A stretch of 64,000 bases of DNA. It comes from Mesonia phycicola. Its GTDB lineage: Bacteria > Bacteroidota > Bacteroidia > Flavobacteriales > Flavobacteriaceae. The stretch spans positions 62,001-126,000 of the forward strand of contig NZ_FQYY01000006.1 in assembly GCF_900141885.1 (NCBI RefSeq). The letters are read 5' to 3'. This document shows, piece by piece, positions 1-15,841 of the stretch (the first letter of the stretch is position 1; each line of letters opens with the position of its first letter). Below the pieces are notes generated by a model. It saw only the letters and a list, made by a program, of their open reading frames with translations, ran no database searches and was not told the DNA's origin. The translations under genes were made by a program, and so were the position numbers.

Positions 1-75
1 TTTACCTCAAAAAAAGAATACATACAAGAAGTAAGTAATATTCCATTAGAAACCGAAAAAGACGCTGCCTTATGA
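1..75 (+). CDS. ccoQ: cbb3 oxidase subunit CcoQ/FixQ, C-terminal end (partial)
   Basis: Only the last 24 codons and the TGA stop are in the window. The visible tail begins FTSKKEYIQEVSNIPL and ends EKDAAL, which fits the short charged cytoplasmic tail that follows the single membrane helix of flavobacterial CcoQ. Its stop overlaps the ATG of ccoP in an ATGA arrangement, so the two are translationally coupled. The identification rests mainly on this position directly ahead of ccoP and on remembered tails of the family, because the membrane helix lies outside the window. Confidence 0.75.
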   Translation, partial: FTSKKEYIQEVSNIPLETEKDAAL

Positions 76-1031: not shown

Positions 1032-1043
1032 TTAAGTAACCTC

Positions 1044-1078
1044 AAGCGGAGTCGAAAGGTCTCAACTCCGCTTTTTTT
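1044..1078 (+). terminator. Rho-independent terminator after ccoP, built from a dispersed repeat
   Basis: AAGCGGAGT (1044-1052) pairs perfectly with ACTCCGCTT (1065-1073) and is followed by a run of T. The stem belongs to the same GCGGAGTCGAAAG...CTCGACTCCGC repeat family found at 3.4-3.9, 4.7 and 6.2 kb, so a dispersed repeat appears to act as the terminator here. It may reduce rather than stop transcription into ccoG. Confidence 0.75.
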
Positions 1079-1250
1079 AAATTTTTTTCAATCCTTGCTT
1101 TGGTAAGAAGCAATTTCAAATTTTAGTCATGCTAAACTTGATTAACTACGTTGAATCTATGATTTCAGCATCTCATCCTGATTGATTTTGCTAACAGCAA
1201 GAAAAATTTTTCAAAATAAATTTAAAACAATAACCTAATACCTAAAAAAC

Positions 1251-2672
1251 GTGGAAGCTCCAGGCAACGAGAAATTTAGAGATTCTATAGGGACTGTTAA
1301 TCAAGAAGGGAAACGTTCTTGGGTATATCCTAAGAAACCTGAAGGTAAATTTTACAAATACAGAACTTGGGTAAGTTACGGTTTGTTGCTGTTTCTTTTT
1401 GCCGCACCTTTTATAAAAATAAATGGCAATCAGTTTTTAATGTTTAATGTCTTAGAGCGTCGTTTTAATATATTCGGGTTTCCGTTTTGGCCACAAGATT
1501 TTCACCTGTTTGTAATTTCAATGATTATAGGGGTGGTATTTATTATTCTGTTTACTGTTGCTTTTGGTAGAATTTTCTGCGGATGGATTTGCCCACAAAC
1601 TATTTTTTTAGAAATGGTTTTTCGCAGAATAGAATATTGGATTGATGGAGATAGAGGTAAACAAATACGTTTAGCAAAACAAGTCTGGAATGCCGAAAAA
1701 ATTAGAAAAAGAGCTTTAAAATGGATTATATTTTTCATGATAAGTTTTCTTATTGCTAACATTTTTCTAGCTTATTTAATAGGAAGCGATGAGCTGTTAA
1801 GATATATTACAGAAGGCCCCAAAACTCACACAAGCACACTTATATCTCTTTTGATATTTACCGGGGTCTTCTATTTTATTTTTGCTTGGTTTAGAGAGCA
1901 GGTATGCATTATTGCTTGTCCTTACGGGCGTTTACAAGGAGCTTTATTAGATAAAAAATCTATAGTGGTTGCTTACGATTATAAGCGAGGAGAAAAAGAA
2001 GCAGGAAGAGCAAAATTCAGAAAAAATGAAGACAGAGAAACAACTGGTAAAGGAGACTGTATAGATTGTGCGCAATGTGTACAAGTATGCCCAACCAATA
2101 TTGATATTAGAAATGGCACGCAGTTAGAGTGTGTAAACTGTACCGCTTGCATTGATGCCTGTGATGCCATGATGAAAAAAGTGAATTTACCAACAGGTTT
2201 AATACGTTATGCTAGCGAAGAAAATATTGCCGAAAAGAAAAAATTCACATTCAATCCACGTTTAAAAGCATATAGTGCAGTACTATTTATTTTGATGGGT
2301 GTTTTAGTAGGTATGCTTTTTTTACGTAATGATGTAGAAGCTACCGTGTTGAGGTTACCAGGACAACTGTATGAAAAGAAAGCAGATAATGTAATAAGAA
2401 ATGTTTATACGTTTAAACTAGTAAATAAAACAGTAGAACCTATTGAAGATGTTCATTTTAAATTGATTTCGCATAGCGGAAAAATTGAATTGGTAACACA
2501 CGAAAATTTTGAAGTTCCTAAGCAAGGTTTATCTGAAGGGACGTTATTTATAGATATTAATCAAGCTGCTTTAGAAAGTGACAAAGAACGATTGAAAATA
2601 GGTGTGTATAGTGGAGATAAATTAATAGAAACTACGGTAGCATCATTTTTAGGGCCACGTAGTTTTAGGTAG
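1251..2672 (+). CDS. ccoG: cbb3 oxidase accessory protein CcoG/FixG (polyferredoxin)
   Basis: A membrane-bound iron-sulfur protein required for cbb3 oxidase assembly; in other bacteria CcoG acts as a cupric reductase that supplies Cu(I) to the oxidase. The sequence shows about five membrane helices, CGWICP at 110-115, the CPYGRLQG signature starting at Cys223, and two classic 4Fe-4S motifs: Cys270/273/276/280 and Cys294/297/300/304. The C-terminal part from about residue 370 is an Ig-like periplasmic domain (IG_FixG). The start is a GTG; no Shine-Dalgarno is seen, as usual in this phylum. Length (473 aa) is normal. It sits between ccoP and fixH as in other flavobacterial cco clusters. Confidence 0.95.
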   Translation: MEAPGNEKFRDSIGTVNQEGKRSWVYPKKPEGKFYKYRTWVSYGLLLFLFAAPFIKINGNQFLMFNVLERRFNIFGFPFWPQDFHLFVISMIIGVVFIILFTVAFGRIFCGWICPQTIFLEMVFRRIEYWIDGDRGKQIRLAKQVWNAEKIRKRALKWIIFFMISFLIANIFLAYLIGSDELLRYITEGPKTHTSTLISLLIFTGVFYFIFAWFREQVCIIACPYGRLQGALLDKKSIVVAYDYKRGEKEAGRAKFRKNEDRETTGKGDCIDCAQCVQVCPTNIDIRNGTQLECVNCTACIDACDAMMKKVNLPTGLIRYASEENIAEKKKFTFNPRLKAYSAVLFILMGVLVGMLFLRNDVEATVLRLPGQLYEKKADNVIRNVYTFKLVNKTVEPIEDVHFKLISHSGKIELVTHENFEVPKQGLSEGTLFIDINQAALESDKERLKIGVYSGDKLIETTVASFLGPRSFR

Positions 2673-2819
2673 AATGCGTCATTTTATGCTGGATATGTAA
2701 TTTCTTCTTGAATTTAAAAACAGAAATAGGAAAGAGGAAACCCTGAAATTGAAGGTTTAACCCAGTAAAATAAGTTTGGGTTGACAATAGACATATAATA
2801 ATTATTTAAACATATAAAT

Positions 2820-3269
2820 ATGAAAAAAATAAATTGGGGAGTAGGTATTGTAATAGCTATAGCATGTTTTATGAGCTTTATAATTTTTTTAGGGGTAAAA
2901 ATGAGTACCGATAAAAAATTTGATCACGATCTGGTAACCGAAGAGTATTATCAACAAGAATTAGCTTACCAAGGAGAGTTAGATGCACAACAAAATTCTG
3001 CAAGTTTAACTAAAAATATACAAGTAGAACTTTCTGCGGAAGGAATTCAAATTGTATTTCCTTCAGAAAAGAGAAACATAGAAGGAGAAGTTAATTTATA
3101 CAGACCTTCTAACAAAAAGTTAGATATAGAAGTTCCAATTTCTTTAGAAAATCAACAAATGTTTATTCCTTCAGAAAAATTAGTAGAAGGGAAATACAAA
3201 CTTTCTATTAATTGGAAATCTAACGGAACCACTTATTTGTACAAAAAAGATTTACAGATTAGAAATTAA
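2820..3269 (+). CDS. ccoH: FixH/CcoH family protein
   Basis: A small single-pass membrane protein (149 aa) needed for maturation of the cbb3 oxidase. It has one N-terminal membrane helix (about residues 6-26), the conserved VTEEYYQQELAYQ stretch near residue 40 that marks the FixH family, and a beta-rich periplasmic domain. The gene is third in the assembly block after ccoP and ccoG, with a 147-base gap to ccoG. Family identity is clear from the YYxxELAYQ motif; the exact biochemical role of FixH is not firmly known in the family. Confidence 0.9.
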   Translation: MKKINWGVGIVIAIACFMSFIIFLGVKMSTDKKFDHDLVTEEYYQQELAYQGELDAQQNSASLTKNIQVELSAEGIQIVFPSEKRNIEGEVNLYRPSNKKLDIEVPISLENQQMFIPSEKLVEGKYKLSINWKSNGTTYLYKKDLQIRN

Positions 3270-3294
3270 ATATTTTGTTTCATTGCAGACTTAA

Positions 3295-3930
3295 TCTGAC
3301 ATGGATAAGAAGTGTCATTCCGGACTTGATCCGGAATCACATTCTAAAAAAAAATATTAGAGATGAGACCCTGAATCGAGTTCAGGCTGACGCAAAATCT
3401 AAGTGAATTTGTACCTCGAGTAAAGTCAAAAGTTTTTGAGCTTTTGTAGAGTTTCAAGATCTCGACTCCGCTCGATCTGACATGGATAAGGAGCGTCATT
3501 CTGTACTTGATCCGAAATCACATTCTAAACGAAAGATTTGGGTGATGAGACCCTGAATCGAGTTCAGGGTGACGATACTCGAAATAATTTATAAAAACGT
3601 TCAAAAGTTAATGAATTTGTCCCCTCGAGTAAAGTCGAAAGTTTTTGAGCTTTTGTAGAGTTTCAAGATCTCGACTCCGCTCGATCTGACATGGATAAGA
3701 AGCGTCATTCCGGACTTGATCCGGAATCACATTCTAAACGAAAGATTTGGGCGATGAGACCCTGAATCGAGTTCAGGGTGACGCAAAATCTAAGTGAATT
3801 TGTACCTCGAGTAAAGTCGAAAATTTTTGAGCTTTTGCAGAGTCTCAAGATCTCGACTCCGCTCGATCTGACATGGATAAGAAGCGTCATTCCAGACTTG
3901 ATCCGGAATCACATAAGAGTAAGTAATTTA
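3295..3930. repeat. Tandem array of a ~182-base composite palindromic repeat (three units plus a partial fourth)
   Basis: Units begin with TCTGACATGGATAAG at 3295, 3476, 3685 and 3867, giving periods of 181, 209 and 182 bases; the second unit carries about 27 extra bases. Each unit joins two inverted repeats. Part A reads TCATTCCGGACTTGATCCGGAATC and pairs loosely with the later CCTGAATCGAGTTCAGG. Part B runs from CCTCGAGTAAAGTCGAAAG to CTCGACTCCGCTCGATCTGAC. This fills most of the 686-base gap between ccoH and the next gene. No coding signal is seen; the open frame inside it simply follows the repeat. Confidence 0.9.
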
Positions 3931-3955
3931 ATAAGTTTTAACCATAAATAGAATT

Positions 3956-4678
3956 ATGCTTTATTCAGCTTTTATATTAGGTTTACTGGGGAGTTTTCAC
4001 TGCGTGGGAATGTGTGGGCCAATTGCATTTATGCTACCGCTGGATCGTAAAAGCAAGTTTAAAAAAATATTACAGTTAAGTCTTTACCATTTTGGTAGGT
4101 TAACTACATACAGCTTTATTGGTTTTTTATTTGGTCTTTTAGGTAAAGGCTTATTTCTGTTTGGTATTCAGCAGAAAATATCTATTGCAATAGGTGGGCT
4201 TATGATTTTGGTGGTAATTATTCCGCATGAAACTTTTAGCAAGTATAATTTTTCACGTCCTATTTATAAACTTATTTCTAAAGTGAAATCTGCTTTAGGT
4301 AAAGAGTTACAAAAGAAAACACCAGATACGTTTTTAACCATTGGCTTTTTAAATGGGTTTTTACCTTGTGGACTTTTATATATGGCCATTTTTGGATCTT
4401 TTGCTTACGAAAGTATAGCGATGAGTTCTTTATATATGATTGTTTTTGGTTTGGGAACTATCCCATTAATGACAATAATGGTATTGGCTGGTAACTTTTT
4501 AAGTACCGCATTTAGACAAAAAATACAAAAAGCCATTCCGGTTTTTGTGGTTATTGTAGGTTTATTATTTGTACTAAGAGGTTTAGGTTTAGGTATTCCG
4601 TATGTATCTCCCAAAGCAATTTATACTACAGAAAAAGTTTCTTCTCAAATAGACTGTCACGTTCCGCGCAAGGGATAG
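3956..4678 (+). CDS. DsbD_2/TauE-SafE-like membrane protein of the cco cluster
   Basis: A 240-aa protein with six hydrophobic segments, of the family usually labelled sulfite exporter TauE/SafE or DsbD-like transmembrane domain. Cysteines sit in FHCVGMCGP (Cys16, Cys20) and in FLPCGLL (Cys138), matching the paired membrane cysteines of DsbD/CcdA-type electron carriers. In flavobacteria this gene closes the cbb3 assembly cluster, so a role in copper delivery or thiol transfer during oxidase assembly is likely, but this is inference. The last codons and the stop lie inside a dispersed stem-loop repeat that begins about 4660, so the final residues (HVPRKG) are repeat-encoded. Confidence 0.85.
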   Translation: MLYSAFILGLLGSFHCVGMCGPIAFMLPLDRKSKFKKILQLSLYHFGRLTTYSFIGFLFGLLGKGLFLFGIQQKISIAIGGLMILVVIIPHETFSKYNFSRPIYKLISKVKSALGKELQKKTPDTFLTIGFLNGFLPCGLLYMAIFGSFAYESIAMSSLYMIVFGLGTIPLMTIMVLAGNFLSTAFRQKIQKAIPVFVVIVGLLFVLRGLGLGIPYVSPKAIYTTEKVSSQIDCHVPRKG

Positions 4679-4790
4679 TAGTGGCATCCTTTTTTGCTTT
4701 TGAAGACTTCTCAACTCTGCTCGAAGTGACCAGCAAAAAAGATATAACGAATAGCCCGACCCTTGTGGTTGCGCCCAATAAATTTTAATG
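4660..4790. repeat. Long imperfect stem-loop repeat, with a second repeat in its loop
   Basis: The left arm contains GCGCAAGGGATAGTAGTGGCATCCTTTTTTGC and the right arm GCAAAAAAGATATAACGAATAGCCCGACCCTTGTGGTTGCGCCC, which are imperfect inverted copies. The loop holds TCTCAACTCTGCTCGAAGTGACC, a member of the other repeat family (see 3295-3930). Two more members with the AGGGATnGTAGTG and AnAGCCCG ends lie near 13432 and 54176. It can form a terminator-like hairpin after the preceding gene. Confidence 0.75.
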
Positions 4791-4813: not shown

Positions 4814-4856
4814 TGCCAAATGTCATATTTTAAACTAGGTAGAGGTAATAGTTTTG
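4814..4856 (+). promoter_or_regulatory. Candidate Crp/FNR-type box plus -7 element before the CoA-transferase gene
   Basis: TGCCAAATGTCA (4814-4825, within the partial palindrome TATGCCAAATGTCATA) is followed after exactly 23 bases by TAGTTTTG (4849-4856), a full match to the Bacteroidetes -7 consensus TAnnTTTG. No -33 TTTG is present at the usual distance. The same box-N23-TAnnTTT layout occurs before 10357 and before 13339, which would place the box near -41.5, typical of activator-dependent promoters. The left half-site is degenerate, so the site alone would be weak. Confidence 0.5.
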
Positions 4857-4883
4857 TAAGAGAAATAGAAAATAAGAACACTT

Positions 4884-6152
4884 ATGTTAACTTTTATATC
4901 AGAAGAAGAGGCGGTATCTAATGTACAATCTGGCAATCGAGTATTTTTTCAAGGTGCAGCAATGACGCCCAAAGTAATTATTAAAGCTTTATGTGAACGC
5001 TACCAAGAATTAAAAGATGTAGAGTTGGTGCAAATGCATACAGAAGGAGATGCTTTATATGCGCAAGAGCCTTACAACCAAAGTTTTCATGTAAATAGTT
5101 GTTTTGTGGGAGGTAATGTGCGTAGAACGGTAAACTCTGAACACGGAGATTATATTCCTATTTTTTTAAGCGAAATGCACTTATTGTTTAAACGTGGTAT
5201 TTTACCTCTTGATGTTGCATTTATACAAGTTTCACCTCCCGACAAACACGGGTATTGCTCATTAGGAACCTCTATAGATGTAACTTTAACAGCAATACAA
5301 TGTGCAAAAAAAGTAATTGCTCAAGTAAATCCGCAAGTGCCAAGAACACACGGAGATGGTATTATACATATGAATAAAATTGATGCGGCGGTAATGGTAA
5401 ATGAGCCTATACATGAAGTATTTACCGTAGAACCCTCTGAGGTTGAAAAGCAAATTGGTTATCATGTGGCGCAATTAGTAGAAGATGGAGCAACTTTACA
5501 AATGGGAATAGGCGGAATACCTAACGTGGTTTTAAATAACTTACACAACCATAAAAACTTAGGAATACATACCGAAATGTTTTCTGATGGAGTGCTGCCT
5601 TTGATTGAAAAAGGAATTATTACCGGAGAAAATAAAATGGTGAAAAACGGAAAAATAGTAACTTGTTTTGCTATTGGCTCTCCTAAATTATATGATTTTT
5701 TAGATGACAACCCGTTAGTACATTTTAAAGAAGCAGCTTATACCAATGATACTTCTATTATTAGGCGAAACCCAAAAGTAACTGCAATTAATAGCGCTAT
5801 TGAAATTGATTTAACCGGACAGGTTTGCGCAGATACTATTGGGAAAATGCAATACTCTGGAGTGGGAGGACAAATGGATTTTATACGTGGAGCCTCACTT
5901 TCTGAAGGAGGAAAAGCAATTATTGCAATGCCTTCTATAACTGCTAAAGGAATTTCTAAAATTGTACCTTGTTTAAAAGAAGGTGCAGGAGTAACTACTA
6001 CTCGTGCGCACGTACATTATATTGCTACAGAAAATGGCGTGGTAAATTTATACGGAAAAAGTTTAAAGCAGCGTGCTAATGCTCTAATATCTATAGCGCA
6101 TCCTAATCATCAAGAGAGTTTAGAGAAAGCGATGTACGAACGTTTTAAATAA
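4884..6152 (+). CDS. Acetyl-CoA hydrolase / 4-hydroxybutyrate-type CoA-transferase family protein
   Basis: A 422-aa class I CoA-transferase of the Cat1/Ach1/AbfT family, which moves CoA between acetate and another acid or hydrolyses acetyl-CoA. The motif GIHTEMFSDG contains the expected active-site glutamate, Glu231. Other family marks are GNVRRTVN, the SPPDKHGYCSLG stretch near residue 120, GIGGIPN near 215, and GVGGQMDFIRGA near 330. Length is normal for the family. Substrate cannot be told from sequence; acetate or succinate are the likely partners. A candidate Crp/FNR-like promoter lies 28-70 bases upstream, suggesting use under oxygen limitation. A strong hairpin terminator follows. Confidence 0.88.
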   Translation: MLTFISEEEAVSNVQSGNRVFFQGAAMTPKVIIKALCERYQELKDVELVQMHTEGDALYAQEPYNQSFHVNSCFVGGNVRRTVNSEHGDYIPIFLSEMHLLFKRGILPLDVAFIQVSPPDKHGYCSLGTSIDVTLTAIQCAKKVIAQVNPQVPRTHGDGIIHMNKIDAAVMVNEPIHEVFTVEPSEVEKQIGYHVAQLVEDGATLQMGIGGIPNVVLNNLHNHKNLGIHTEMFSDGVLPLIEKGIITGENKMVKNGKIVTCFAIGSPKLYDFLDDNPLVHFKEAAYTNDTSIIRRNPKVTAINSAIEIDLTGQVCADTIGKMQYSGVGGQMDFIRGASLSEGGKAIIAMPSITAKGISKIVPCLKEGAGVTTTRAHVHYIATENGVVNLYGKSLKQRANALISIAHPNHQESLEKAMYERFK

Positions 6153-6154
6153 AA

Positions 6155-6240
6155 TGAATGTCACCTTGAGCGGAGTCGAAAGGTTTTTAACATCAATTTT
6201 TAGTATGAATTGAGTTCTCGACTCCGCTCGAACTGACCAA
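6155..6240. repeat. Dispersed palindromic repeat (GCGGAGTCGAAAG family)
   Basis: GTCACCTTGAGCGGAGTCGAAAGG and TTCTCGACTCCGCTCGAACTGACC form an inverted pair around an AT-rich loop. It is the same family as the terminator at 1044 and part B of the array at 3295-3930. Confidence 0.8.
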
Positions 6241-6243
6241 ACA

Positions 6244-6278
6244 AAAAAAATCCCTAGCTAAAAAACTAGGGTTTTTTT
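6244..6278 (+). terminator. Rho-independent terminator of the CoA-transferase gene
   Basis: CCCTAG (6252-6257) pairs with CTAGGG (6266-6271), followed by seven T; preceding A residues extend the stem on the other strand, so it could also serve the convergent gene on the minus strand. Confidence 0.75.
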
Positions 6279-6289
6279 ATTGATCTATT

Positions 6290-6380
6290 TTTCGTCATTC
6301 TGGACTTGATCCGGAATCTCATCTGGATGAGTAGAAGAGTTTGATGTGATTCTGAAATAAATTCAGAATGACGAAAAGTT
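6290..6380. repeat. Dispersed inverted repeat (TCATTCTGGACTTGATCCGGAATC family)
   Basis: TTCGTCATTCTGGACTTGATCCGGAATCTCATC and its inverted partner GATGTGATTCTGAAATAAATTCAGAATGACGAA make a long hairpin between two convergent genes. It matches part A of the tandem array at 3295-3930, here as a solitary copy with well matched outer arms. Confidence 0.8.
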
Positions 6381-6393
6381 ATATTTTAAAAAC

Positions 6394-7119
6394 TTATTTT
6401 CTATTTCCTAAAATACGTAGTAAGAATAAGAAAAGATTGATAAAGTCTAAGTATAAAGTTAAGGCTCCAATAATAGAAAGTTTTTGACCAGTTTCTGAGT
6501 TTTCGTTTCCTTCTACCGCAATTCTTTTTAATTTTTGGGTATCCCAAGCAGTTAAACCTACAAAAATTAATACTCCTGCATAGGTAACAATCCAATATAG
6601 TATTTCATTCTGAAGAAAAATATTTACGATAGAGGCTATTACAATACCAATAAGTGCCATAAAACATAAATTACCTATTTTGGTTAAATCTTGTTTAGTA
6701 AAATAACCATAAGCACTCATTGCGGCAAAAGTTGCAGCAGTAACAAAAAATGTAGAGGCAATAGAACCAGATGTGTATGCTAAAAACACAAAAGATAACG
6801 TTAAACCGTTAAAAGCAGCATAGGCAATAAATAATGCAATAGCGGTACTTGCAGACATATTTTTAATGGCAGAGGTTAAATAAGCAACCAAAGCAAATTC
6901 TCCAATAATAAGTCCGAAGAAAATAATTTTATTTCCAAACACTGCATTTAAAAGAGAAGGGGTAGAGACGGTAATAATTGCTACCAAACCAGTAATTACT
7001 AATGCTAAAGTCATCCAGCTATAGACTTTGGTAATAAAGCCAGCTTGCGCTTTTTTAATTTCGTCTTGTGTTAATACAGGAGCTTCATAAGTAGAAGCCT
7101 CAGAAAAATTAGAATTCAT
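6394..7119 (-). CDS. Bax inhibitor-1 / YccA family membrane protein
   Basis: A 241-aa integral membrane protein with seven predicted helices after a short polar N-terminus. The family hallmark is visible as FITKVYSWMTLALVITGLVA at the first helix and, near the C-terminus, the stretch VGLTAWDTQKLK, where the Asp is part of the pH-sensing pair known from BsYetJ. Members act as calcium leak channels or stress modulators; the bacterial role is poorly defined. The gene appears single, ending towards the repeat-rich gap at 6.3 kb. Confidence 0.92.
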   Translation of the reverse strand: MNSNFSEASTYEAPVLTQDEIKKAQAGFITKVYSWMTLALVITGLVAIITVSTPSLLNAVFGNKIIFFGLIIGEFALVAYLTSAIKNMSASTAIALFIAYAAFNGLTLSFVFLAYTSGSIASTFFVTAATFAAMSAYGYFTKQDLTKIGNLCFMALIGIVIASIVNIFLQNEILYWIVTYAGVLIFVGLTAWDTQKLKRIAVEGNENSETGQKLSIIGALTLYLDFINLFLFLLRILGNRK

Positions 7120-7270
7120 GAAAATTGGTTTTTAAGTAAAAATATAAGTTTTATTTAAAAATGAATTAATTAAGTTGTAAATTATTTAAATTAATCCTTT
7201 GTGTAAGGTAAATCGTATCGAAATAGGGTTTAAAATAATGAAATTTAAACTATAGTATAAGGTTAAAAAT

Positions 7271-7912
7271 TTATATTTTTTGACCTAACAAAATGGTATT
7301 AGTACCTTTTACGTGTTCTATCTTTTTAAATAAAAATATTTTTTTAGTTTGCTGAAGAAGGTTTTCAATTTCTTTGATGTGTTGCTGCCCAATACCAGCA
7401 TTAAAAATAACAGTAGCTTTTGTAGAAAGAAGCTTTGATAAGTTTTGCCAAAATACTAATTGAAAAAATGCTTCTGGTACTTTAATATCTATAAAAATAT
7501 CTACAATTACGGTTTCATATTTATGAGGATGTTGCTGAACAAATTGTGAGGCATCTTCACAAATTACTTCTATAGGAGCGTATTGTTGAATGTTAAATTC
7601 TGAATTTGCTACTTTAATAATAGCTTTATCTATCTCTACTGCAGTAATTTTTCCGTAAAAATTATATTTTTCTCTTAGAAGCTGTAAAATACTACCGCCA
7701 CCTAGGCCTAACACCAAAACCTGTCCGCTTCTGTCTGCATTAGTTTTTTCTAGAGCAATATCTAAAATTTCGTGTAAGGCTCCGTATGAGTAATTTGCGT
7801 TTTTAGTGTCCAGTATTTTTTTTCCATTAAGCCAAGTCACTTCTAAATCTCCGCTATAATCAGATTTTATTTTTTTAGTAAGTGGCCAAATATAGCTTAA
7901 GGTTTTTTTCAT
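7271..7912 (-). CDS. Spermidine synthase-like class I SAM-dependent methyltransferase
   Basis: A 213-aa protein with a Rossmann SAM/decarboxylated-SAM site, VLVLGLGGGSILQLL near residue 66, the acidic strand end TAVEID near 91, and VIVDIFID near 135, the pattern of the spermine/spermidine synthase superfamily. It is shorter than true SpeE (about 290 aa) and lacks its N-terminal beta domain, so polyamine synthesis should not be assumed. A TAGATTTG -7 element lies on the minus strand at 7951-7958, 39 bases ahead of the start. It follows the alpha/beta hydrolase gene by 52 bases. Confidence 0.75.
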   Translation of the reverse strand: MKKTLSYIWPLTKKIKSDYSGDLEVTWLNGKKILDTKNANYSYGALHEILDIALEKTNADRSGQVLVLGLGGGSILQLLREKYNFYGKITAVEIDKAIIKVANSEFNIQQYAPIEVICEDASQFVQQHPHKYETVIVDIFIDIKVPEAFFQLVFWQNLSKLLSTKATVIFNAGIGQQHIKEIENLLQQTKKIFLFKKIEHVKGTNTILLGQKI

Positions 7913-7964
7913 ATATATTAATAATTTTAGTGAAATAGGTTTTGTGAAAACAAATCTAAATATA

Positions 7965-9332
7965 TTAATTATTGGCTTGTTCTAATATCCATTGTGTAAT
8001 ATCTTGTAAAACTTGTGGAGCTGTGGTTTGCTCAATATCTCCATATTCTTGTACACTTCCAGTGGTTGCTTCTTGAAACAAATGATTTAAATTAGGATAT
8101 GTTTTAGTAGTGATTGGGGCGCCAGACTGTTTTACACTTTTTGTAATAGCATCTAAGTTTTCTTTTGCTAATACTTGTATATCTTTTTCTCCATTTAGAG
8201 CCAATACAGGGCAGCTCACCTTTGTAAGAAATTGAGTAGGATCTAACCTAATAAACTCTTTCATCCAATTAGAGTTTATTTGATTATTTATTTGCTCAAG
8301 TTCTGTATTACTAACCATAGCACCCCAGTGTTTTTTAAAAATATTTAAGGTTTTGGTTTTAGTCTCATTACTAGTTAAAGTAGTATCTAAAATTTCTTGG
8401 TATACCTCTTGAAATATAGCTTGACGTTGAGCGGTAGCCAGTGCATTTATACCTTGTATTTCTTCTAATTTTTTACGCTGCTGATTTAAAATTTTATCTC
8501 CTCTTAATCCAGGGCCAGCAAGTAAAACTATATAATCTACTTTGTTTTTGCTAGCAAGGGCAGGAGCAATAATACCACCTTCACTATGGCCAATTGCACC
8601 AATTTTTTGAGAATTAATTTCTGGTCGGGTTTTTAAGTAATTTACTGCAGCTTGCGCATCATCTATAAAGTTGTAAGTAGTAGCTGTGCTAAAATTTCCT
8701 TCAGAAGCAGCAGTACCACGGTCATCATAACGTAAAACAGCAATGCCATTATTGGTTAAGTAATCTGCTAACACCCAAAAAGGCTGATGGCCCAATATTT
8801 CTTCATTTCTATTTTGGGGTCCGCTACCAGAAATAAGCACCACTGCAGGAAATTTTTCTTTCCCTTTTGGTAAAGTTAAAGTCCCGTACAGGTTAATGTT
8901 ATCTATTTTATTTGTGAAATGTACTTCTTCAGAAGAGTATAAAAACGGTGCTTCTGGAGTTTGCGGCCTTTTGGGAGCTTCTGTAACAACTACTTTTTTA
9001 CTTAAAGTTAACGGGATGCTGTAACCTCTTTGTTTAAAAGTACCTACAAGTGTAGTATCTGGTTGTAATTCTGCTTCATAAATTATCTGAATAGATTTTT
9101 GCGTAATAGTTAATTTATTTTGAATAAAAGATACGCTATCTAGCGGAATACCATAAGCATTTTGACTAGGGCTATCCATCGTAGCACTAAAATCAGTATC
9201 TATTTTATTTATATGAAATACGGTAGGTAGTTTTGTATTCTGTATGCTTAGCTCACCGTACCAATCTCCTTCTATAGTTTGCGCAATACATAAATTGGTA
9301 ACCAAAAATAATAGTAGTAGTATCTTTTTCAT
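7965..9332 (-). CDS. Secreted alpha/beta hydrolase (serine esterase/peptidase-like)
   Basis: A 455-aa protein with a signal peptide (about residues 1-17, ending CIAQ), a lipocalin-like beta domain to about residue 115, then an alpha/beta hydrolase fold. The oxyanion region is VLISGSGPQNRNE, followed by YDDRGTAASEG, and the nucleophile elbow is GHSEGG with Ser250. A candidate acid is in LNGEKD and the histidine in NLNHLFQEA near the C-terminus. This matches the S9-related dienelactone hydrolase-type proteins common in Bacteroidetes. The substrate is unknown. It starts two bases after the stop of the upstream membrane protein, so it is part of the 10188-to-7965 operon. Confidence 0.88.
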   Translation of the reverse strand: MKKILLLLFLVTNLCIAQTIEGDWYGELSIQNTKLPTVFHINKIDTDFSATMDSPSQNAYGIPLDSVSFIQNKLTITQKSIQIIYEAELQPDTTLVGTFKQRGYSIPLTLSKKVVVTEAPKRPQTPEAPFLYSSEEVHFTNKIDNINLYGTLTLPKGKEKFPAVVLISGSGPQNRNEEILGHQPFWVLADYLTNNGIAVLRYDDRGTAASEGNFSTATTYNFIDDAQAAVNYLKTRPEINSQKIGAIGHSEGGIIAPALASKNKVDYIVLLAGPGLRGDKILNQQRKKLEEIQGINALATAQRQAIFQEVYQEILDTTLTSNETKTKTLNIFKKHWGAMVSNTELEQINNQINSNWMKEFIRLDPTQFLTKVSCPVLALNGEKDIQVLAKENLDAITKSVKQSGAPITTKTYPNLNHLFQEATTGSVQEYGDIEQTTAPQVLQDITQWILEQANN

Positions 9333-9334
9333 AA

Positions 9335-9922
9335 TTAATAATTTAATGTGTAAATACTAAGTTTAGAAGAAACTTCAGCAAGAAGAATTGCTATAATAAA
9401 AAATACTATAGGTTTAGCTCCTTTTGCATTGGTTGCAATTTTGTATCCTTTAAAAAGTAAATAGAAATAATAAACCAATAGCACTATAGAAAAGAGAGCA
9501 AAAATAACGATGTATAAAACATCTATAACACCTATAGAAATTGCTTGTGTGTTTTTTAATGTAATGTTTACTAATTGCTGTGTAATATCTAATAAGTAGT
9601 TATTAATGTTACCAAAACTTAGTAAGTAATATGGTAGTCTAGCAAGTATACAAGTTGCTAAAATATCTATAATTCTCGTTTTTTTATAGGTAAGAATGGC
9701 TGCTATAAAAAGAAAAATAGTAAGAAAAATAATGTTTATAAAGTTGTCTGTAAACGGAGCGTAAAAATGTAACTCATTTACAAAATGTAGATCTAAAACC
9801 CCATCAAACCTAGCATGAAAAGCAAAAGCGATAAGAGAACCTAATAATGTACCTGCTAGCCCAATACTAATTAGTTTGGTTTCAGAATAATTTTCAAAAG
9901 GCTGAAAGAATATTTTTTTCAT
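9335..9922 (-). CDS. YIP1-like multi-pass membrane protein
   Basis: A 195-aa protein with about five hydrophobic segments (residues 18-36, 58-80, 88-110, 130-155, 168-190) and an N-terminus FFQPFENYSETKL that resembles the Yip1-domain proteins found next to DUF2089 genes. It is packed between DUF2089 (two bases upstream) and the alpha/beta hydrolase (two bases downstream), so all three are co-transcribed. Function is unknown; the family assignment is moderate because the conserved Yip1 motifs are weak. Confidence 0.6.
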   Translation of the reverse strand: MKKIFFQPFENYSETKLISIGLAGTLLGSLIAFAFHARFDGVLDLHFVNELHFYAPFTDNFINIIFLTIFLFIAAILTYKKTRIIDILATCILARLPYYLLSFGNINNYLLDITQQLVNITLKNTQAISIGVIDVLYIVIFALFSIVLLVYYFYLLFKGYKIATNAKGAKPIVFFIIAILLAEVSSKLSIYTLNY

Positions 9923-9924
9923 TT

Positions 9925-10188
9925 TTATTTTGAATTTAGTTGAGCTATAATATCATCTAATTTATTTCTTACAGTAGGGTAGCTCTTTTCTAATTGCGCT
10001 GCCATTTTTTTTAAACTTCCGCCAGTTAAAACAAACTGAAGAATAAAATTTTGATCTTCTACAGATAATTGCATTAAAGCTGGTAAAGCATATTTACCAG
10101 AAATTACAGTTGCGCAATTATTACAAGAAAGCTGACTTACCTCTAAGGTGTTTTCACAACTAGGGCATTTTACAGGAAGTTGAGCCAT
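9925..10188 (-). CDS. DUF2089 zinc-ribbon/HTH protein
   Basis: An 87-aa protein with an N-terminal zinc ribbon (Cys8, Cys11, then CNNC near residues 22-25) and a C-terminal helix-turn-helix-like part ending SYPTVRNKLDDIIAQL, the clear DUF2089 signature. Family members are presumed transcription factors or regulators of the membrane protein encoded beside them. It is the first gene of a four-gene minus-strand series (DUF2089, YIP1-like, hydrolase, methyltransferase). It is divergent from the 10357 gene, and the palindromic box at 10289 could influence either side. Confidence 0.88.
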   Translation of the reverse strand: MAQLPVKCPSCENTLEVSQLSCNNCATVISGKYALPALMQLSVEDQNFILQFVLTGGSLKKMAAQLEKSYPTVRNKLDDIIAQLNSK

Positions 10189-10288
10189 TTTTAAATTTAT
10201 TAAACTTAATTTTAAATAAAATTAAACATAAAATGAATAAAATTAAAATTTTCATAGTTTTTTAGAGATAATTTTTTTTTTTGAAACC

Positions 10289-10331
10289 TGATAAATGTCA
10301 TTTTATAAACACTGCTTCGGTAGTAATTTTA
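10289..10331 (+). promoter_or_regulatory. Crp/FNR-type box plus -7-like element before the haemoglobin operon
   Basis: TGATAAATGTCA (10289-10300) differs by one base from a TGAT-N4-ATCA FNR palindrome. After exactly 23 bases comes TAATTTTA (10324-10331), one base off TAnnTTTG. The spacing equals that of the sites at 4814 and 13405. It lies 26-68 bases before the 10357 start. Confidence 0.6.
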
Positions 10332-10356
10332 TACTATAATTTAAAAACAATATAAG

Positions 10357-10650
10357 ATGTCAGTTTATCAAAAATATTACGGAGAGTTTAAAGAAATGTA
10401 TTACGGTAGTGCTGCTATAGGTATAATTGCTTCTAGTTGTTTAGGTGCTATTGCAGCAATGTTTATTTTAATGACAGGTCACGGATTTTTACAAATGATT
10501 CAATTATTTGCAGTAGTAATGATCTCTATGGGCTATAATACGGCAGTACTTTCTAATTTACCGTCTAAACAAGTTTTTAATTCGTTAGTAGCAAGTATAT
10601 CTGTAAATTTATTATTTATTTTGTACCACGGATTAATGATGTTGTTGTAA
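10357..10650 (+). CDS. Small membrane protein of unknown function
   Basis: I do not recognise this 97-aa protein. It has a polar, Tyr-rich N-terminus (VYQKYYGEFKEMYY) and three hydrophobic helices, about residues 18-40, 44-64 and 76-97. It ends six bases before the group III haemoglobin and sits behind the candidate Crp/FNR-like promoter at 10289, so it is probably co-expressed with the haemoglobin under low oxygen or nitrosative stress. No cysteine pairs or metal-binding motifs are evident beyond scattered histidines in the helices. Confidence 0.8.
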   Translation: MSVYQKYYGEFKEMYYGSAAIGIIASSCLGAIAAMFILMTGHGFLQMIQLFAVVMISMGYNTAVLSNLPSKQVFNSLVASISVNLLFILYHGLMMLL

Positions 10651-10656
10651 TAAAAT

Positions 10657-11040
10657 ATGAAACAAATAGAAAATAGAGACGATGTACAGTTACTTGTACA
10701 TCGGTTTTACGATAAAGTAAGAGCCAATCCCGAGATTGGCTCTTTTTTTAATGAAACCATAACAGATTGGAGCCACCACCTAGAAAAGTTGACCGATTTT
10801 TGGGAGAGTAATTTACTTTATGCAGGTAGCTATAGAGGCAGACCAGGTAGAGCACACATAGAAGTAGATTATAAATATAACCACCAAATAGAAGCAAAGC
10901 ATTTTGGAGTTTGGTTAAACCTTTGGGTAAATACCTTAGATGAGTATTTTGAAGGAGAATTGGCAGAAAGAGCAAAATTTAATGCTAGAAATATGGCAAC
11001 CAATTTTCAAATGAAAATTTTTATGGCAAGACCGAAGTAA
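10657..11040 (+). CDS. Group III truncated haemoglobin
   Basis: A 127-aa globin that binds oxygen or nitric oxide. The proximal histidine is His82 in KHFGVWL, matching HFDIWL of Campylobacter Ctb; Tyr18 in RFYDKV fits the B10 distal tyrosine. DWSHHLEKLTDFWESNLL and YRGRPGRAH are typical of the group III class. It lies six bases after a small membrane protein and converges on hemN, with a shared hairpin terminator between them. The context of cbb3 oxidase and hemN suggests a role in microaerobic or NO detoxifying metabolism. Confidence 0.93.
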   Translation: MKQIENRDDVQLLVHRFYDKVRANPEIGSFFNETITDWSHHLEKLTDFWESNLLYAGSYRGRPGRAHIEVDYKYNHQIEAKHFGVWLNLWVNTLDEYFEGELAERAKFNARNMATNFQMKIFMARPK

Positions 11041-11057
11041 TAGAGGTTTATCTAAAA

Positions 11058-11110
11058 AAGAAAAGCATCTCTTTCAGAATTTATTTATAAACTCTAGAGA
11101 TGCTTTTTCT
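11058..11110. terminator. Bidirectional hairpin terminator between haemoglobin and hemN
   Basis: AAAAGCATCTCT (from 11061) pairs with AGAGATGCTTTTT (ending about 11108) around a 23-base AT-rich loop. A runs and T runs flank both sides, so it can end transcription of both convergent genes. Confidence 0.8.
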
Positions 11111-11149
11111 AACCTACTAACTTAACTCAACCTACTTTCATTTTTACTT

Positions 11150-12514
11150 TTAAACCGTCATAGAAAATAATCTGGTTTCTGGTTTATTTCGTTGCAGGCG
11201 CAAATCAAACGCCATGCATATATTTCTTACAAAAGGTCTCCCTTTTTCTGTTATTTGTAACGTGTTATTGGTAATAGATAGAAGCCCATCATTTTTCATT
11301 TCTGTAAGGCGTTCTAATACTTCTGGCAGTTCTGTAAAATGCAAATCATTTTCTTGCCATTCTGTTTGTAAATGGCACATTAAATTTAAAATATGCTTTC
11401 TAAGTATTAAATCTTCTTGGTTTAATAAATGTCCTCTAAAAACTGGTAAAATACCATTGTTTACTAGCTCTTGGTATTCTTCAATACTCTTAGTGTTTTG
11501 AGCAAAACCATACCAACTATCACTAATAGAAGAAACCCCTAAACCAATCATTAATTTTGTTTTAGAAGCGGTATACCCCATAAAATTTCGGTGTAATTGT
11601 TTTGCCTCTAAAGATTGGTAAAGTAAATCTGTTTTTAGCGCAAAATGATCCATACCTATTTCTACATACCCCATTTCTTCTAACAGCTCTTTGCCTAATT
11701 GGTATTGTGCTCTTTTGGTTTCTGCAGAAGGTAAATCGGCTTCATGATAACCACGTTGCCCGTTTCCTTTAATCCAAGGTACGTGTGCATAGCTGTAAAA
11801 AGCAATGCGGTCTGGCATTAATTCTTTAGTTTTTAAAATAGTATTTTTAACAGCATCAATACTTTGAAAAGGTAAGCCAAATATAATATCATGACTTACA
11901 GAAGTATAACCAATCTCGCGAGCCAATTTGGTAGCCTCTTTTACTTTATTAAAAGGCTGTATTCTGTTTATTGCTTTTTGTACCGCTGCATCATAATCTT
12001 GCACGCCATAACTTACTCTGGTAAAACCTACTTCTTGCAAAGCTTCTAAATGTGCTTTGGTAGTATTATTTGGATGACCTTCAAAACTAAATTGATATGC
12101 TTCTGCCAAATTTACTTTTCTTAGAAGTTCTTTAATTAAGAACTTTAAATTCTCAGGAGAAAAAAAAGTTGGTGTGCCGCCACCTAAATGAATTTCTTTT
12201 ACTTTCACCTTTTTAGGTAAAATATCTAAGTAAAGCTCCCATTCTTTTAAAACCGAAGTTAAATACGGTAACTCTACCTCGTGGCGCTTAGTAATACGTT
12301 TATTACAACCACAAAATGTGCACATACTTTCACAGTATGGTAAATGTATGTAAAGGCTAATGCCTTCTGTTTCATTACTTTCTGTGAAAGAAGTGGTTAC
12401 CGATTGTTTCCAATCTTTTAAAGAAAAGCTAGAATTATCCCAATAAGGTACGGTTGGGTAACTGGTATATCTAGGACCAGGAATATTATATTTTTGAACA
12501 AGTGGTTGGCACAT
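11150..12514 (-). CDS. hemN: Oxygen-independent coproporphyrinogen III oxidase
   Basis: A radical SAM enzyme of haem synthesis that oxidatively decarboxylates coproporphyrinogen III without oxygen. The cluster motif has Cys61, Cys65, Cys68 plus Cys70 in YCESMCTFCGC, one residue off the E. coli HemN positions 62/66/69/71, which separates true HemN from HemW. LGGGTPTFF follows near residue 115, and N-terminal PRYTSYPTVPYW is also HemN-specific. Length (454 aa) is normal. It lies 12 bases after uspA and is expected to share the Crp/FNR-type promoter at 13363-13405. Confidence 0.96.
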   Translation of the reverse strand: MCQPLVQKYNIPGPRYTSYPTVPYWDNSSFSLKDWKQSVTTSFTESNETEGISLYIHLPYCESMCTFCGCNKRITKRHEVELPYLTSVLKEWELYLDILPKKVKVKEIHLGGGTPTFFSPENLKFLIKELLRKVNLAEAYQFSFEGHPNNTTKAHLEALQEVGFTRVSYGVQDYDAAVQKAINRIQPFNKVKEATKLAREIGYTSVSHDIIFGLPFQSIDAVKNTILKTKELMPDRIAFYSYAHVPWIKGNGQRGYHEADLPSAETKRAQYQLGKELLEEMGYVEIGMDHFALKTDLLYQSLEAKQLHRNFMGYTASKTKLMIGLGVSSISDSWYGFAQNTKSIEEYQELVNNGILPVFRGHLLNQEDLILRKHILNLMCHLQTEWQENDLHFTELPEVLERLTEMKNDGLLSITNNTLQITEKGRPFVRNICMAFDLRLQRNKPETRLFSMTV

Positions 12515-12526
12515 ATAGTTTGTAAA

Positions 12527-13339
12527 TTATTCGTGTAAAACTAAAAACGGAATCTCTTTATGATAGCTTATTTTTTTTGCCAAAGGGTGAAACAAAATGT
12601 GCTGAAAAAAGTTTAAATTTTTAGCCATCATAGTAATCATTTGTGTTTCGTGAGAAGTAACAAAAGACTGTACCGCTTCTTCTAGCGTGTTGTTTTGTGT
12701 AAAATGGAAACTATGTTCTAGCTCCATTAATTGCTCTTTCAAGTAGTTTTTATTACTCTCTTGAGATTCAGATAAATCTTCTTCTTTTTTAGATAAATAC
12801 AAAACACTTAATGCCGACTCATTAAAATGGCAAACCTGTTTTAAGGTATGAATTACTTTGTTTTTATAAGAAATATTAAAATCTGTAGGAAAGGTGATGC
12901 GTTTAGGTTCTGTATATCTAGCATCTTCTGGTATTACTAAAACCGGGCATTTAACTCTAGTAATAACATCTGTAGAGTGACTACCTACCGTTGCTTCTTT
13001 GTAACCACTAGCACCTTGCGTACCCATTACAATAAAATCTACCTCTTTATTTGTAACCTGCTCGCGTATAGCTTCTATAAAATTACCAGACTCTGTAGCC
13101 GTAAAAAACTGGTGTTTGTTATTTTTTTTCTCTTTAGCCAAACGTGTTAATAAAACCTGAAAAGACTGCTGGGTGTTGGTAGCAGTGCTTTGTGCAACCT
13201 TAACATCTGTCTCTTCCCAATCATTAGTTTCAATATTTAAAAAATAAAAATTGGTATATACATTCTGAAAAAACGATAACGCATAGCTAATAGCATTCCA
13301 AGAATTTTCAGAAAAATCTGTAGGCATTAAAATATTCAT
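12527..13339 (-). CDS. Universal stress protein, tandem UspA domains
   Basis: A 270-aa cytoplasmic protein made of two Usp domains. The first (residues 1-143) ends with the ATP-binding pattern GTQGASG...GSHSTDVI and the strand CPVLVIPED; the second half is more divergent and lacks a clear nucleotide motif. Usp proteins are typically induced by oxygen limitation or growth arrest. It is first in a two-gene operon with hemN. The upstream region holds a perfect TGAT-N4-ATCA box and a TACATTTG -7 element. Confidence 0.9.
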   Translation of the reverse strand: MNILMPTDFSENSWNAISYALSFFQNVYTNFYFLNIETNDWEETDVKVAQSTATNTQQSFQVLLTRLAKEKKNNKHQFFTATESGNFIEAIREQVTNKEVDFIVMGTQGASGYKEATVGSHSTDVITRVKCPVLVIPEDARYTEPKRITFPTDFNISYKNKVIHTLKQVCHFNESALSVLYLSKKEEDLSESQESNKNYLKEQLMELEHSFHFTQNNTLEEAVQSFVTSHETQMITMMAKNLNFFQHILFHPLAKKISYHKEIPFLVLHE

Positions 13340-13362
13340 CTTCCTCTACTTTTATGATAAAG

Positions 13363-13405
13363 CAAATGTAGAAGAAGAGAAGAGGGTGAAAAATGATAAA
13401 AATCA
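13363..13405 (-). promoter_or_regulatory. FNR-type promoter of uspA-hemN
   Basis: On the minus strand a perfect palindromic core TGAT-TTTT-ATCA (13405 to 13394) is followed after 23 bases by TACATTTG (13370 to 13363), a full match to the Bacteroidetes -7 consensus. Assuming transcription starts about four bases after the -7 element, the box centre is near -41.5, the class II activator position. The usual -33 TTTG is absent. Confidence 0.7.
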
Positions 13406-13429
13406 GTTTTCTATAAATTAGTAAAATAA

Positions 13430-13542
13430 TATGGGCGTTACCTTTTAGGTCGGGCTATGCGTTACAATTCCTCACAAGTTTGCACTCACGTTACAACTTG
13501 CTGCGGGATTTTCACTACTATCCCTAACGCAAAAAATGAAGT
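13430..13542. repeat. Long stem-loop repeat, second member
   Basis: Read on the minus strand it starts GCGTTAGGGATAGTAGTGAAAATCCCGCAGCAAG and ends TAACGCATAGCCCGACCTAAAAGGTAACGCCCA, the same end motifs as the element at 4660-4790. It sits just after the stop of the REC-Crp regulator gene at 13550, as expected for a 3'-end element. Confidence 0.75.
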
Positions 13543-13549
13543 GATAGCA

Positions 13550-14602
13550 TTACTCCATTACTTCTAACCCTTCTACATCAAGAATTTTAATATTTCTTCC
13601 TTCAATTTCTATAAGTCCATCTTTTTTAAAAGCAGAGAGTGTTCTTATTAAGCTTTCTGTAGCAATACCTGCTACACTTGCTAAATCTCCACGAGAAATT
13701 TTAATATTTTCAGAAGGATTTTTATCTAATACTTTAACAAACTGCAAAATGGTTTGTGCTGTTTTTCTTTTTACAGAGCTATAAGCCATTTGTAGTAATT
13801 GTTGTTTTATTTCAGATAAATTATCTGCAAGCACATTCATTAATTCTAAAGAAACTTTTTTGTTACTCTCTAAAATATCTTTTAATGTTTGTTTAGAAAT
13901 ACCTGCAAGTTCTGTTTTTTCTACTGCAGTAGCAGATTCTTGATAAGGAATGTTATCTTCAAAAGAAGTAAAGCCTAAAAACTCATCAGGTTTAAAAAGA
14001 GCGGTAATAAGTTCTTTTCCGTTTTCATCCATTTGGTGTGTTTTTACTACACCTTCTAAAATTAAATATACAAAATTAGAGTGATCTCCTTCTGTATAAA
14101 TAGATTCTCCTTTTTTGTAAGTAGTTATTTCCCCTTCATCATCAAACAAATTTTTAAGCTCATTTAAATTTCTAACACTATCTTCTTTTTCAACTTCAAC
14201 AGTAATTGGTTTAATAATATTTTCAGCTAAAATTTTTGCTTTAGCTAACCTACTTTCTATGGCACTAATTAGTTCTTCTTCATCAAAAGGTTTGGTTAAA
14301 TAATCATCTGCTCCCATATTCATGCCTTTGCGTATTTCTTTATGCTCTGTTTTAGCAGAAAGAAATATAAACGGAATATGTTGTGTAGAAGCATTTTTGG
14401 CTAAGGCAGCTAATACACCATAACCATCTACTTCTGGCATCATAATATCACAAACAATAATATCTGGTGTTAGTTGTAAGGCTTTATCTATTCCTATTCT
14501 TCCGTTAGGTGCGGTGGTAACTTGGTAATTAGAAAGTTCTAAGAGTTCTGCAGTATTTTCACGTAAAGCAGTATCATCTTCAATAAGAAGAATAGTTTTC
14601 AT
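13550..14602 (-). CDS. Receiver domain fused to a Crp/FNR-type transcription regulator
   Basis: A 350-aa protein in three parts. Residues 1-118 are a CheY-like receiver with EDD at 8-10, phospho-acceptor Asp52 in VCDIMMPEVDG, and the TKPF lysine. Residues about 145-255 are a cyclic-nucleotide-binding-type beta barrel (GESIYTEGDHSNFVYLILEG). Residues about 275-345 are a Crp winged helix, where ATESLIRTL aligns with the FNR recognition helix, keeping Glu316 and Arg320 (FNR Glu209 and Arg213) that read TGA half-sites. There is one cysteine only (Cys51), so no FNR-type iron-sulfur cluster. It is six bases after the partner kinase. It probably regulates nearby low-oxygen genes. Confidence 0.92.
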   Translation of the reverse strand: MKTILLIEDDTALRENTAELLELSNYQVTTAPNGRIGIDKALQLTPDIIVCDIMMPEVDGYGVLAALAKNASTQHIPFIFLSAKTEHKEIRKGMNMGADDYLTKPFDEEELISAIESRLAKAKILAENIIKPITVEVEKEDSVRNLNELKNLFDDEGEITTYKKGESIYTEGDHSNFVYLILEGVVKTHQMDENGKELITALFKPDEFLGFTSFEDNIPYQESATAVEKTELAGISKQTLKDILESNKKVSLELMNVLADNLSEIKQQLLQMAYSSVKRKTAQTILQFVKVLDKNPSENIKISRGDLASVAGIATESLIRTLSAFKKDGLIEIEGRNIKILDVEGLEVME

Positions 14603-14608
14603 AATAGA

Positions 14609-15841
14609 TTATTGATTTGAAGTTAGCGGAATTGTAACGGTAAATGTACTTCCTTTGTTAATTTCACTGGTAAAATTAATACTTCCGTTAAGGTTTTCCA
14701 AATGGCTTTTAATAATGTTTAAACCAATACCAGTACCTTGGTTTAGCAGTGCGTTTTCTGCTCTAAAGTACCTTTTAAATATAAATTTTTGTTCTTTTTC
14801 AGGAATACCAATACCTTCATCTTTTATAGTGATATAAAGAAGGTTATTTTTAGTAAATGCTTCAATATCTATGGTAGTATTTTCTAGAGAATATTTTATA
14901 GCATTATTAATTAAATTGGTAAGTACCAGCTCTAAAATCTTTTCATCAAAATCTAAATATATATCATCAATATTTGTAGGGTAGCTAATTTTTTGCCCTT
15001 CTTTTAAAAGCATATTAGCATCATAAATCACTTCGTTAGTTACTTTACTTAGCGGAAAATGGCTAAACTTATAACTTACTTTACCTGTTTCTAATCTTTC
15101 TACAGAAAGAAAATCATCTAAAATATTATTTAAGTATTTTACCTTACTTTTTATTGTTTTAAGGTGCTTGTCTCTTTTTTCTTGTTGTTCTGTTTGTGTG
15201 TATTTACCTATAAGAGTGGTAGAGGTTAAAATACCGCTAAGGGGAGTTTTAAACTCGTGAGAAACTAGAGAAAGAAATTTGGTTTTAAGTTCATTAAGTT
15301 CTCGTTCTTTACGTAGCGATTCTTTTATCTTATTTTCTGCCTCTTTACGTTTTGTAATCTCATCTTCTAGTTCTAATACAGTTTGGTGCAGCTCTTCTGT
15401 TCTTACTTCAATTTTGTGTTCTAGTTGGTTATTTAGTTCTAATATTTGTTTTTCTTGTGTTTTACGAATACTAATATCTATAACCATTGCCATCACGTAA
15501 TGATGACCTTCTAGTTCAAAAGGGTTTAATCCTGCTTCAACAGGAAATTGATGTCCGTCTTTTTTTAATCCGTACAAGTCTCTGCCGCTACCCATTTGGC
15601 GGTGGCTACTATGCTTCATAAAGCCATCTACTTGGCTTTGGTGGTTGTGTACATATTTTTGAGGAATTAAAACGTCTAAATGTTGCCCTTTTAATTCATC
15701 TTGTTTGTAACCAAACATTTGGTTGGCAGAATTATTACTGGCTACTATAATTTGGTTGCTATTAACAACAATAATTCCTTCAGAAACAGATTCAAATAAA
15801 ATTCCGAAGTTGTGTTTATTAAGTTCCTCAAAGTTTTTCAT
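14609..15841 (-). CDS. PAS-domain sensor histidine kinase, FixL-like
   Basis: A 410-aa soluble kinase without membrane segments. Residues 10-126 are a PAS domain; it aligns with the FixL haem PAS, placing His67 (KYVHNHQSQ) at the haem-binding His200 of Bradyrhizobium FixL and Arg87 (GSGRD) at Arg220, with the identical 20-residue spacing. A coiled coil follows (130-185), then the H box LVSHEFKTPLSG with phospho-acceptor His195, the N box NLINNAIKYS, and the G boxes DEGIGIP and GTGIGL. Many related PAS domains share these residues without proven haem, so oxygen sensing is inferred. TATTTTTG lies four bases before the ATG, suggesting a very short leader. Confidence 0.9.
   Translation of the reverse strand: MKNFEELNKHNFGILFESVSEGIIVVNSNQIIVASNNSANQMFGYKQDELKGQHLDVLIPQKYVHNHQSQVDGFMKHSSHRQMGSGRDLYGLKKDGHQFPVEAGLNPFELEGHHYVMAMVIDISIRKTQEKQILELNNQLEHKIEVRTEELHQTVLELEDEITKRKEAENKIKESLRKERELNELKTKFLSLVSHEFKTPLSGILTSTTLIGKYTQTEQQEKRDKHLKTIKSKVKYLNNILDDFLSVERLETGKVSYKFSHFPLSKVTNEVIYDANMLLKEGQKISYPTNIDDIYLDFDEKILELVLTNLINNAIKYSLENTTIDIEAFTKNNLLYITIKDEGIGIPEKEQKFIFKRYFRAENALLNQGTGIGLNIIKSHLENLNGSINFTSEINKGSTFTVTIPLTSNQ

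Follow-up and report, generated by a model that had tools for sequence, protein, structure and literature searches.

Box-N23-TAnnTTTR promoters in Mesonia phycicola: a candidate low-oxygen regulon and its proposed control by a receiver-CRP fusion and a PAS kinase

Three promoters in a stretch of 64,000 nucleotides from Mesonia phycicola, a member of the Flavobacteriaceae (contig NZ_FQYY01000006.1, positions 62,001 to 126,000; the whole stretch is termed the window below), carry a Crp/FNR-type box exactly 23 bases before a -7 element, TAnnTTT. They are best explained, with a probability that we put at about 0.68, as class II low-oxygen promoters driven by a protein in which a receiver is fused to a CRP-type activator (the receiver-CRP fusion), itself under a histidine kinase with a haem PAS domain, FNR having been replaced here by this pair. 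The evidence comes from the promoter layout and its conservation, the domain content of the two proteins, the haem-ligand residues of the kinase and the lack of an FNR match in the organism's own genome.

Promoter layout and spacing

The three sites in the window are as follows.

4814..4856, plus strand: predicted class II promoter of the CoA-transferase gene (coaT); box TGCCAAATGTCA, N23, TAGTTTTG; gap of 23 in 5/5 scorable orthologues, box weak
10289..10331, plus strand: predicted class II promoter of smp-haemoglobin; box TGATAAATGTCA, N23, TAATTTTA; supported by shuffles and orthologues
13363..13405, minus strand: predicted class II promoter of usp-hemN; box TGATTTTTATCA, N23, TACATTTG; supported by shuffles and orthologues

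The preliminary description of this DNA had reported these sites, and the N23 between box and -7 element proved exact in all three, confirming the observation of three promoters in the window. The exact pattern TGAY-N4-RTCA-N23-TAnnTTTR occurs twice (10289-10331, plus strand; 13405-13363, minus strand), where 100 shuffles predict 0.01; if any base is allowed at the third box position, the count rises to three, with 0.04 expected. When all gaps of 15-31 bases between an exact box and TAnnTTT were allowed, the window gave two combinations, both with a gap of 23.

The same spacing was assessed in 80 loci from relatives (1.6 Mb; the nearest from Mesonia and Salegentibacter), gathered by a genome scan around the window's receiver-CRP gene and hence, since all surround one regulator gene, no random genome sample. 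At gap 23 they contain 439 exact boxes with TAnnTTT[AG], whereas the mean over gaps 5-60, with 22-24 omitted, is 3.5, the next highest figures being 18 at gap 24 and 13 at gap 25. Eight decoy palindromes gave 0-2 occurrences each at gap 23, and 10/439 sites had no open reading frame of 60 amino acids (aa) within 300 bases. The logo of 386 non-redundant sites is A-rich from -51 to -49, has C or A at -48, continues with TGAY, W-W-W-T, R and TCA, and ends with T at -35 (97%), a T-rich stretch and TAnnTTTR. The T-rich positions from -35 onwards fall where a -33 element would lie. It had been remarked that none of the three window promoters has TTTG at -33, which is true but says little, because TTTG is also rare before other TAnnTTTG elements in the relative loci (10/1725 with TTTG 19 bases before TA, versus 1/213 box promoters).

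According to a report on Flavobacterium psychrophilum, TAnnTTTG lies at -12 to -5 in that species (PMC9723704). With the -7 element so placed, a gap of 23 would therefore centre the box near -41.5, the class II position; the preliminary description had put it there, and the gap and the F. psychrophilum start map together predict the same.

Comparison of orthologous upstream regions, a check that had been recommended at the outset, showed the sites to be kept at usp, smp, coaT and ccoS, whose promoter is the first of the cbb3 oxidase cluster. Before usp, 107/109 loci have an 8/8 box at gap 23; across a wider set of 170 (the window plus 80 and 89 loci) the site is present in 155. The smp site has an 8/8 box in 19/21 orthologues and a 7/8 box in the remaining two. 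For coaT, the gap is 23 in all five scorable orthologues, with boxes matching at 8, 7, 6, 6 and 6 of 8 positions; a sixth orthologue was left out because its start could not be aligned (L033). The gap is also 23 before ccoS in 58/60 relatives, one of them with a 7/8 box. In the same comparison no gap-23 site with a box of at least 6/8 was found at the promoters of eight control genes (ccoG, ccoH, ccoP, dsbD2, the fusion gene, globin, bax1 and duf2089), and such sites were present at 2/33 hemN and 6/56 thioredoxin promoters.

Box-N23 combinations upstream of random genes had been named as the result that would speak against a regulon. A scan of 604 kb of the organism's own genome, made up of the window and a further 540 kb and amounting to 18% of the total, gave three exact sites, located before ccoS-ccoNO, smp-haemoglobin and usp-hemN and nowhere else. 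The ccoS promoter is 2.6 kb to the left of the window, and the cbb3 oxidase operon is a fourth target, absent from the preliminary description. The proposal made there, that the fixed spacing reflects a real low-oxygen regulon, is supported by the gap-23 counts, the near-zero decoys and the conservation at usp, smp, coaT and ccoS.

The receiver-CRP fusion and the PAS kinase

The two genes proposed to encode the regulators also lie in the window, 6 bases apart and in one predicted operon; neither was mentioned in the preliminary description.

13550..14602, minus strand: receiver-CRP fusion, 350 aa, proposed activator; Pfam PF00072, PF00027 and PF13545 (receiver, cNMP-binding fold, Crp-type helix-turn-helix)
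14609..15841, minus strand: PAS histidine kinase, 410 aa, proposed haem oxygen sensor; Pfam; 6 bases before the fusion gene

The arrangement is widespread. A kinase-sized reading frame stands directly upstream of the fusion gene in 169/170 loci and a box promoter directly adjoins it in 155/170; kinase, fusion and usp were all matched in 109/109 loci, in that order except in L086. At E 1e-30 the fusion has matches in 115 of the 249 family genomes; in some the matching protein is a paralogue or a receiver by itself. In the window's protein the receiver (PF00072) covers residues 4-116 and the output part is Crp-type (PF13545). Its recognition helix reads ATESLIR, compared to ATESAIR in many FNRs, and on alignment the Glu and Arg of the FNR helix are both present. 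The FNR set of cysteines is lacking: the window's fusion has a single Cys, located in the receiver (the relatives' fusions that were compared have 1-3), and no iron-sulphur (Fe-S) cluster is therefore expected. In a tree including 13 fusions, these are grouped as a single clade to which the Fe-S FNRs do not belong, with support of 100/99. The hallmarks of a two-component pair can be read in both partners, His195 being kept in 42/42 aligned kinases and Asp52, with the other receiver residues, being present in the fusion. A second family of receiver-CRP fusions is found in relatives (L237, L243, L259; rows of 39-49% identity), often beside the first.

Comparison of the kinase's PAS domain with solved structures gave DosP or FixL as the best 13 of 18 sequence matches. 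A model of the full-length kinase matched mostly kinase cores and LOV kinases; the PAS domain was therefore modelled alone, and the 27 best matches of the resulting fold (predicted local distance difference test score 80) were haem PAS domains of DosP, FixL and FG214. His67 is kept in 164/169 kinases (three gaps, two other residues) and Arg87 in 140/169, the window's kinase being included in both counts. We take these two residues to correspond to the haem ligands of FixL, an assignment that fits the occurrence of R97A entries of DosP and an R220A entry of FixL among the fold matches. The kinase thus combines, as in FixL, a PAS fold having the presumed haem His and distal Arg with a kinase core. 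An apparent division into two kinase classes was an artefact of clipped starts in two-PAS kinases. Of 85 kinase promoters in relatives (for example L004, L016 and L052), 55 have an 8/8 box; its gap to TAnnTTT[AG] is usually 24 or 25, and the base following the box is G where gap-23 sites have T.

In the mechanism that we propose, in which binding, phosphotransfer, haem, oxygen response and start sites are all predictions, the three window promoters and the ccoS promoter would belong to a low-oxygen regulon and be activated from the class II position. Low oxygen would empty the haem of the kinase PAS domain, held as in FixL or DosP, and the oxygen-short kinase would phosphorylate the receiver of the fusion. 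A fusion dimer on the box at -41.5 could then touch and recruit the housekeeping RNA polymerase, which would read TAnnTTTR at -12 to -5, turning on the genes for cbb3 oxidase, usp-hemN, smp-haemoglobin and CoA-transferase. That the pair would be active when oxygen is absent is suggested by FixL and by the nature of the target genes. In much of the family an Fe-S FNR would serve promoters of the same layout; here the two-component pair would stand in for it.

FNR in the family and alternative explanations

Four proteins with cyclic nucleoside monophosphate (cNMP)-binding domain matches are encoded in the organism's own genome, namely the fusion and proteins of 211, 195 and 156 aa, and the FNR cysteines are found in none of them. 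A search at 1e-30 gave no FNR match in this genome, nor in that of a genus mate (G053), and a DUF6134 gene occupies the place where relatives have FNR beside ccoI. Across the family, Fe-S-type FNR matches are present in 154/249 genomes (E below 1e-50). Most of the FNR sequences aligned have Cys 4, 7, 53 and 106, exceptions being L220 and L224; of the four residues, Cys 4, 7 and 106 pair with cysteines of a solved FNR. Among 37 genomes with ccoS but no fusion, 35 have the Fe-S-type FNR, with a near-identical recognition helix and the same layout at the promoter, and in 29 an FNR-like gene lies at most 3.7 kb from ccoS (counted by eye). FNR is found in 2/23 genomes with neither fusion nor ccoS and is missing from 27/57 with both. 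On the fusion's tree, FNR status requires 16 changes, at least 10 of them forced by well-supported branches, which fits repeated loss. At the fnr loci of genomes without the fusion (L203-L232), the same box lies only 9 bases before TAnnTTT[AG] upstream of fnr in 16/30, over the promoter core, a position that fits negative autoregulation by FNR.

Several results weigh against control by the fusion. At ccoS the gap of 23 is present in 29/30 genomes without the fusion and in 29/30 with it (one of the latter with a 7/8 box). Being equally common without the fusion, the layout is therefore not specific to this regulator and belongs to the family; gap 23 was accordingly rejected as a mark of the fusion protein. 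Base -48 was similarly rejected as a mark of the regulator: before ccoS it is A 22, C 5 and T 1 where FNR alone is present (one locus without a site) and C 10, A 2 and T 1 where the fusion alone is present (two loci without a site), and it follows lineage more than FNR status on the fusion's tree. The usp site is missing from 15/170 loci, many in one FNR-bearing clade, and no box is present at the promoter of the fusion gene itself or at that of the kinase gene in the window. The above genome counts for FNR, fusion and ccoS take no account of relatedness. Another CRP protein, of 195 aa (C37:128741) or 211 aa (C37:327185), might instead bind the boxes as class II sites, the receiver-CRP pair then controlling few promoters or none. 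Both proteins are encoded in this genome, the layout exists without the fusion, and the 195-aa protein has, within PESLSR, the Glu and Arg of TGA-reading helices. The 211-aa helix, SSRVVISR, lacks the Glu, however, and the adjacency of fusion gene and box promoter in most loci, together with the resemblance of the fusion helix to the one in the FNR that adjoins cco genes in other genomes, makes such a binder unlikely.

The kinase's presumed distal Arg is missing in 29/169 cases, which counts against oxygen as the signal; solved forms of FixL show, in addition, that haem PAS domains bind nitric oxide and carbon monoxide too. The pair might then read the boxes in response to one of these gases or to redox state, but the best PAS matches are oxygen sensors and the targets include cbb3 oxidase and the oxygen-independent hemN, and we consider a non-oxygen signal improbable. 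It is very doubtful that an Fe-S FNR is the true regulator and was missed through an incomplete assembly or divergence of its gene: the assembly is in 43 contigs, but its completeness is 99.95%, and neither the cNMP-domain proteins nor the search at 1e-30 nor the genus mate yielded an FNR. As for chance matches in AT-rich DNA, the coaT box begins TGCC and matches at 7/8 positions, and 7/8 boxes in the 604 kb number five at gap 23 against about four at other gaps, with no enrichment. Such boxes being common, the coaT site taken alone could be chance, and this putative promoter rests on orthologue conservation. That all three sites arose by chance is scarcely credible given the shuffles, decoys and orthologous promoters, by which chance is excluded for the usp and smp sites. 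Control by the fusion and its kinase remains the explanation that we favour.

Target genes, related systems and significance

The genes predicted to be served by the window promoters, and the cbb3 genes at its left end, are listed here; names in this genome are those of family matches.

72..4678, plus strand: ccoP, ccoG, ccoH and a DsbD_2-type gene, the distal part of the cbb3 gene cluster
4884..6152, plus strand: coaT, acetyl-CoA hydrolase/transferase family; Pfam PF13336 and PF02550; best NCBIfam match CoA-transferase, under the cut-off
10357..10650, plus strand: smp, small membrane protein, 97 aa; no Pfam or NCBIfam match
10657..11040, plus strand: group III truncated haemoglobin; one solved-structure match, 2ig3 (E 3.2e-12)
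11150..12514, minus strand: hemN, oxygen-independent coproporphyrinogen III oxidase, 12 bases after usp; NCBIfam TIGR00538, above the cut-off
12527..13339, minus strand: usp, universal stress protein; Pfam PF00582

In the cbb3 cluster, ccoS is followed by a COX1-FixO fusion and, further on and inside the window, by ccoP, ccoG and ccoH; the genes at 72..4678 are probably on one transcript with the ccoS promoter. At L118:17679-19877, cbb3 subunits I and II form a single fused protein of 732 aa (COX1 plus FixO). The genes following gap-23 sites in the 80 loci are universal stress proteins (194), TerB-like (57), HPF-like (23) and lipoprotein-like (22) genes, ccoS (20), the smp family (20), Hsp20 (8), thioredoxin (6) and others, named by eye except for usp, smp, trx, hemN and coaT. 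In relatives L033-L112, with their many universal stress, Hsp20 and HPF-like proteins, the set is reminiscent of dormancy programmes, of which the DosR regulon is an example. The intergenic regions 4660-4780 and 13425-13545 have by eye several words in common, among them AGCCCGACC / GGTCGGGCT, in opposite orientation, perhaps an intergenic repeat.

The system resembles FNR in its TGAY-N4-RTCA box at -41.5, in a recognition helix near-identical to that of flavobacterial FNR and in its cbb3 and hemN targets, and differs in the fusion's one Cys, the added receiver and the kinase in the operon. In FixL-FixJ-FixK of rhizobia, a haem PAS kinase, a receiver and a CRP-type activator control cbb3 oxidase. 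All of these elements recur here (the haem PAS kinase as a prediction), although the receiver and the CRP-type activator are in one protein and no second transcription step is needed. The fusion has a Crp-type output rather than the LuxR-type output of FixJ, and has a receiver where FixK stands alone without one. We think it somewhat better than an even chance that an oxygen-sensor swap took place in Flavobacteriaceae, in which FNR was repeatedly lost and its class II regulon passed to a FixL-type kinase and a receiver-CRP fusion; box core, recognition helix and 23-base spacing would have been kept, and the jobs of FixL, FixJ and FixK condensed into two proteins.

The DosR-DosS/T dormancy regulon likewise has haem kinases, and its universal stress and small heat-shock targets have counterparts among the downstream genes in relatives; it differs in its GAF haem domains, NarL-type regulator and other box. 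In Myxococcus xanthus, the NmpRSTU system is reported to place cbb3 oxidase, hemN and a universal stress protein under a haem-dependent kinase, there by way of a globin-type sensor, an NtrC-like regulator and a multi-step relay (PMC11841059). The titles and abstract openings searched, with most subscription journals outside their scope, held no description of the fusion, the kinase or the promoter layout in Flavobacteriaceae.

If the proposed explanation is true, box-N23-TAnnTTTR would be a family-wide promoter code from which low-oxygen regulons can be read, and it would show class II activation on the unusual -7 promoter of Bacteroidota. Genomes with the Fe-S FNR, the haem kinase or both would then constitute a natural experiment, in which sensing by an Fe-S cluster and by a haem kinase may be compared on one promoter layout.

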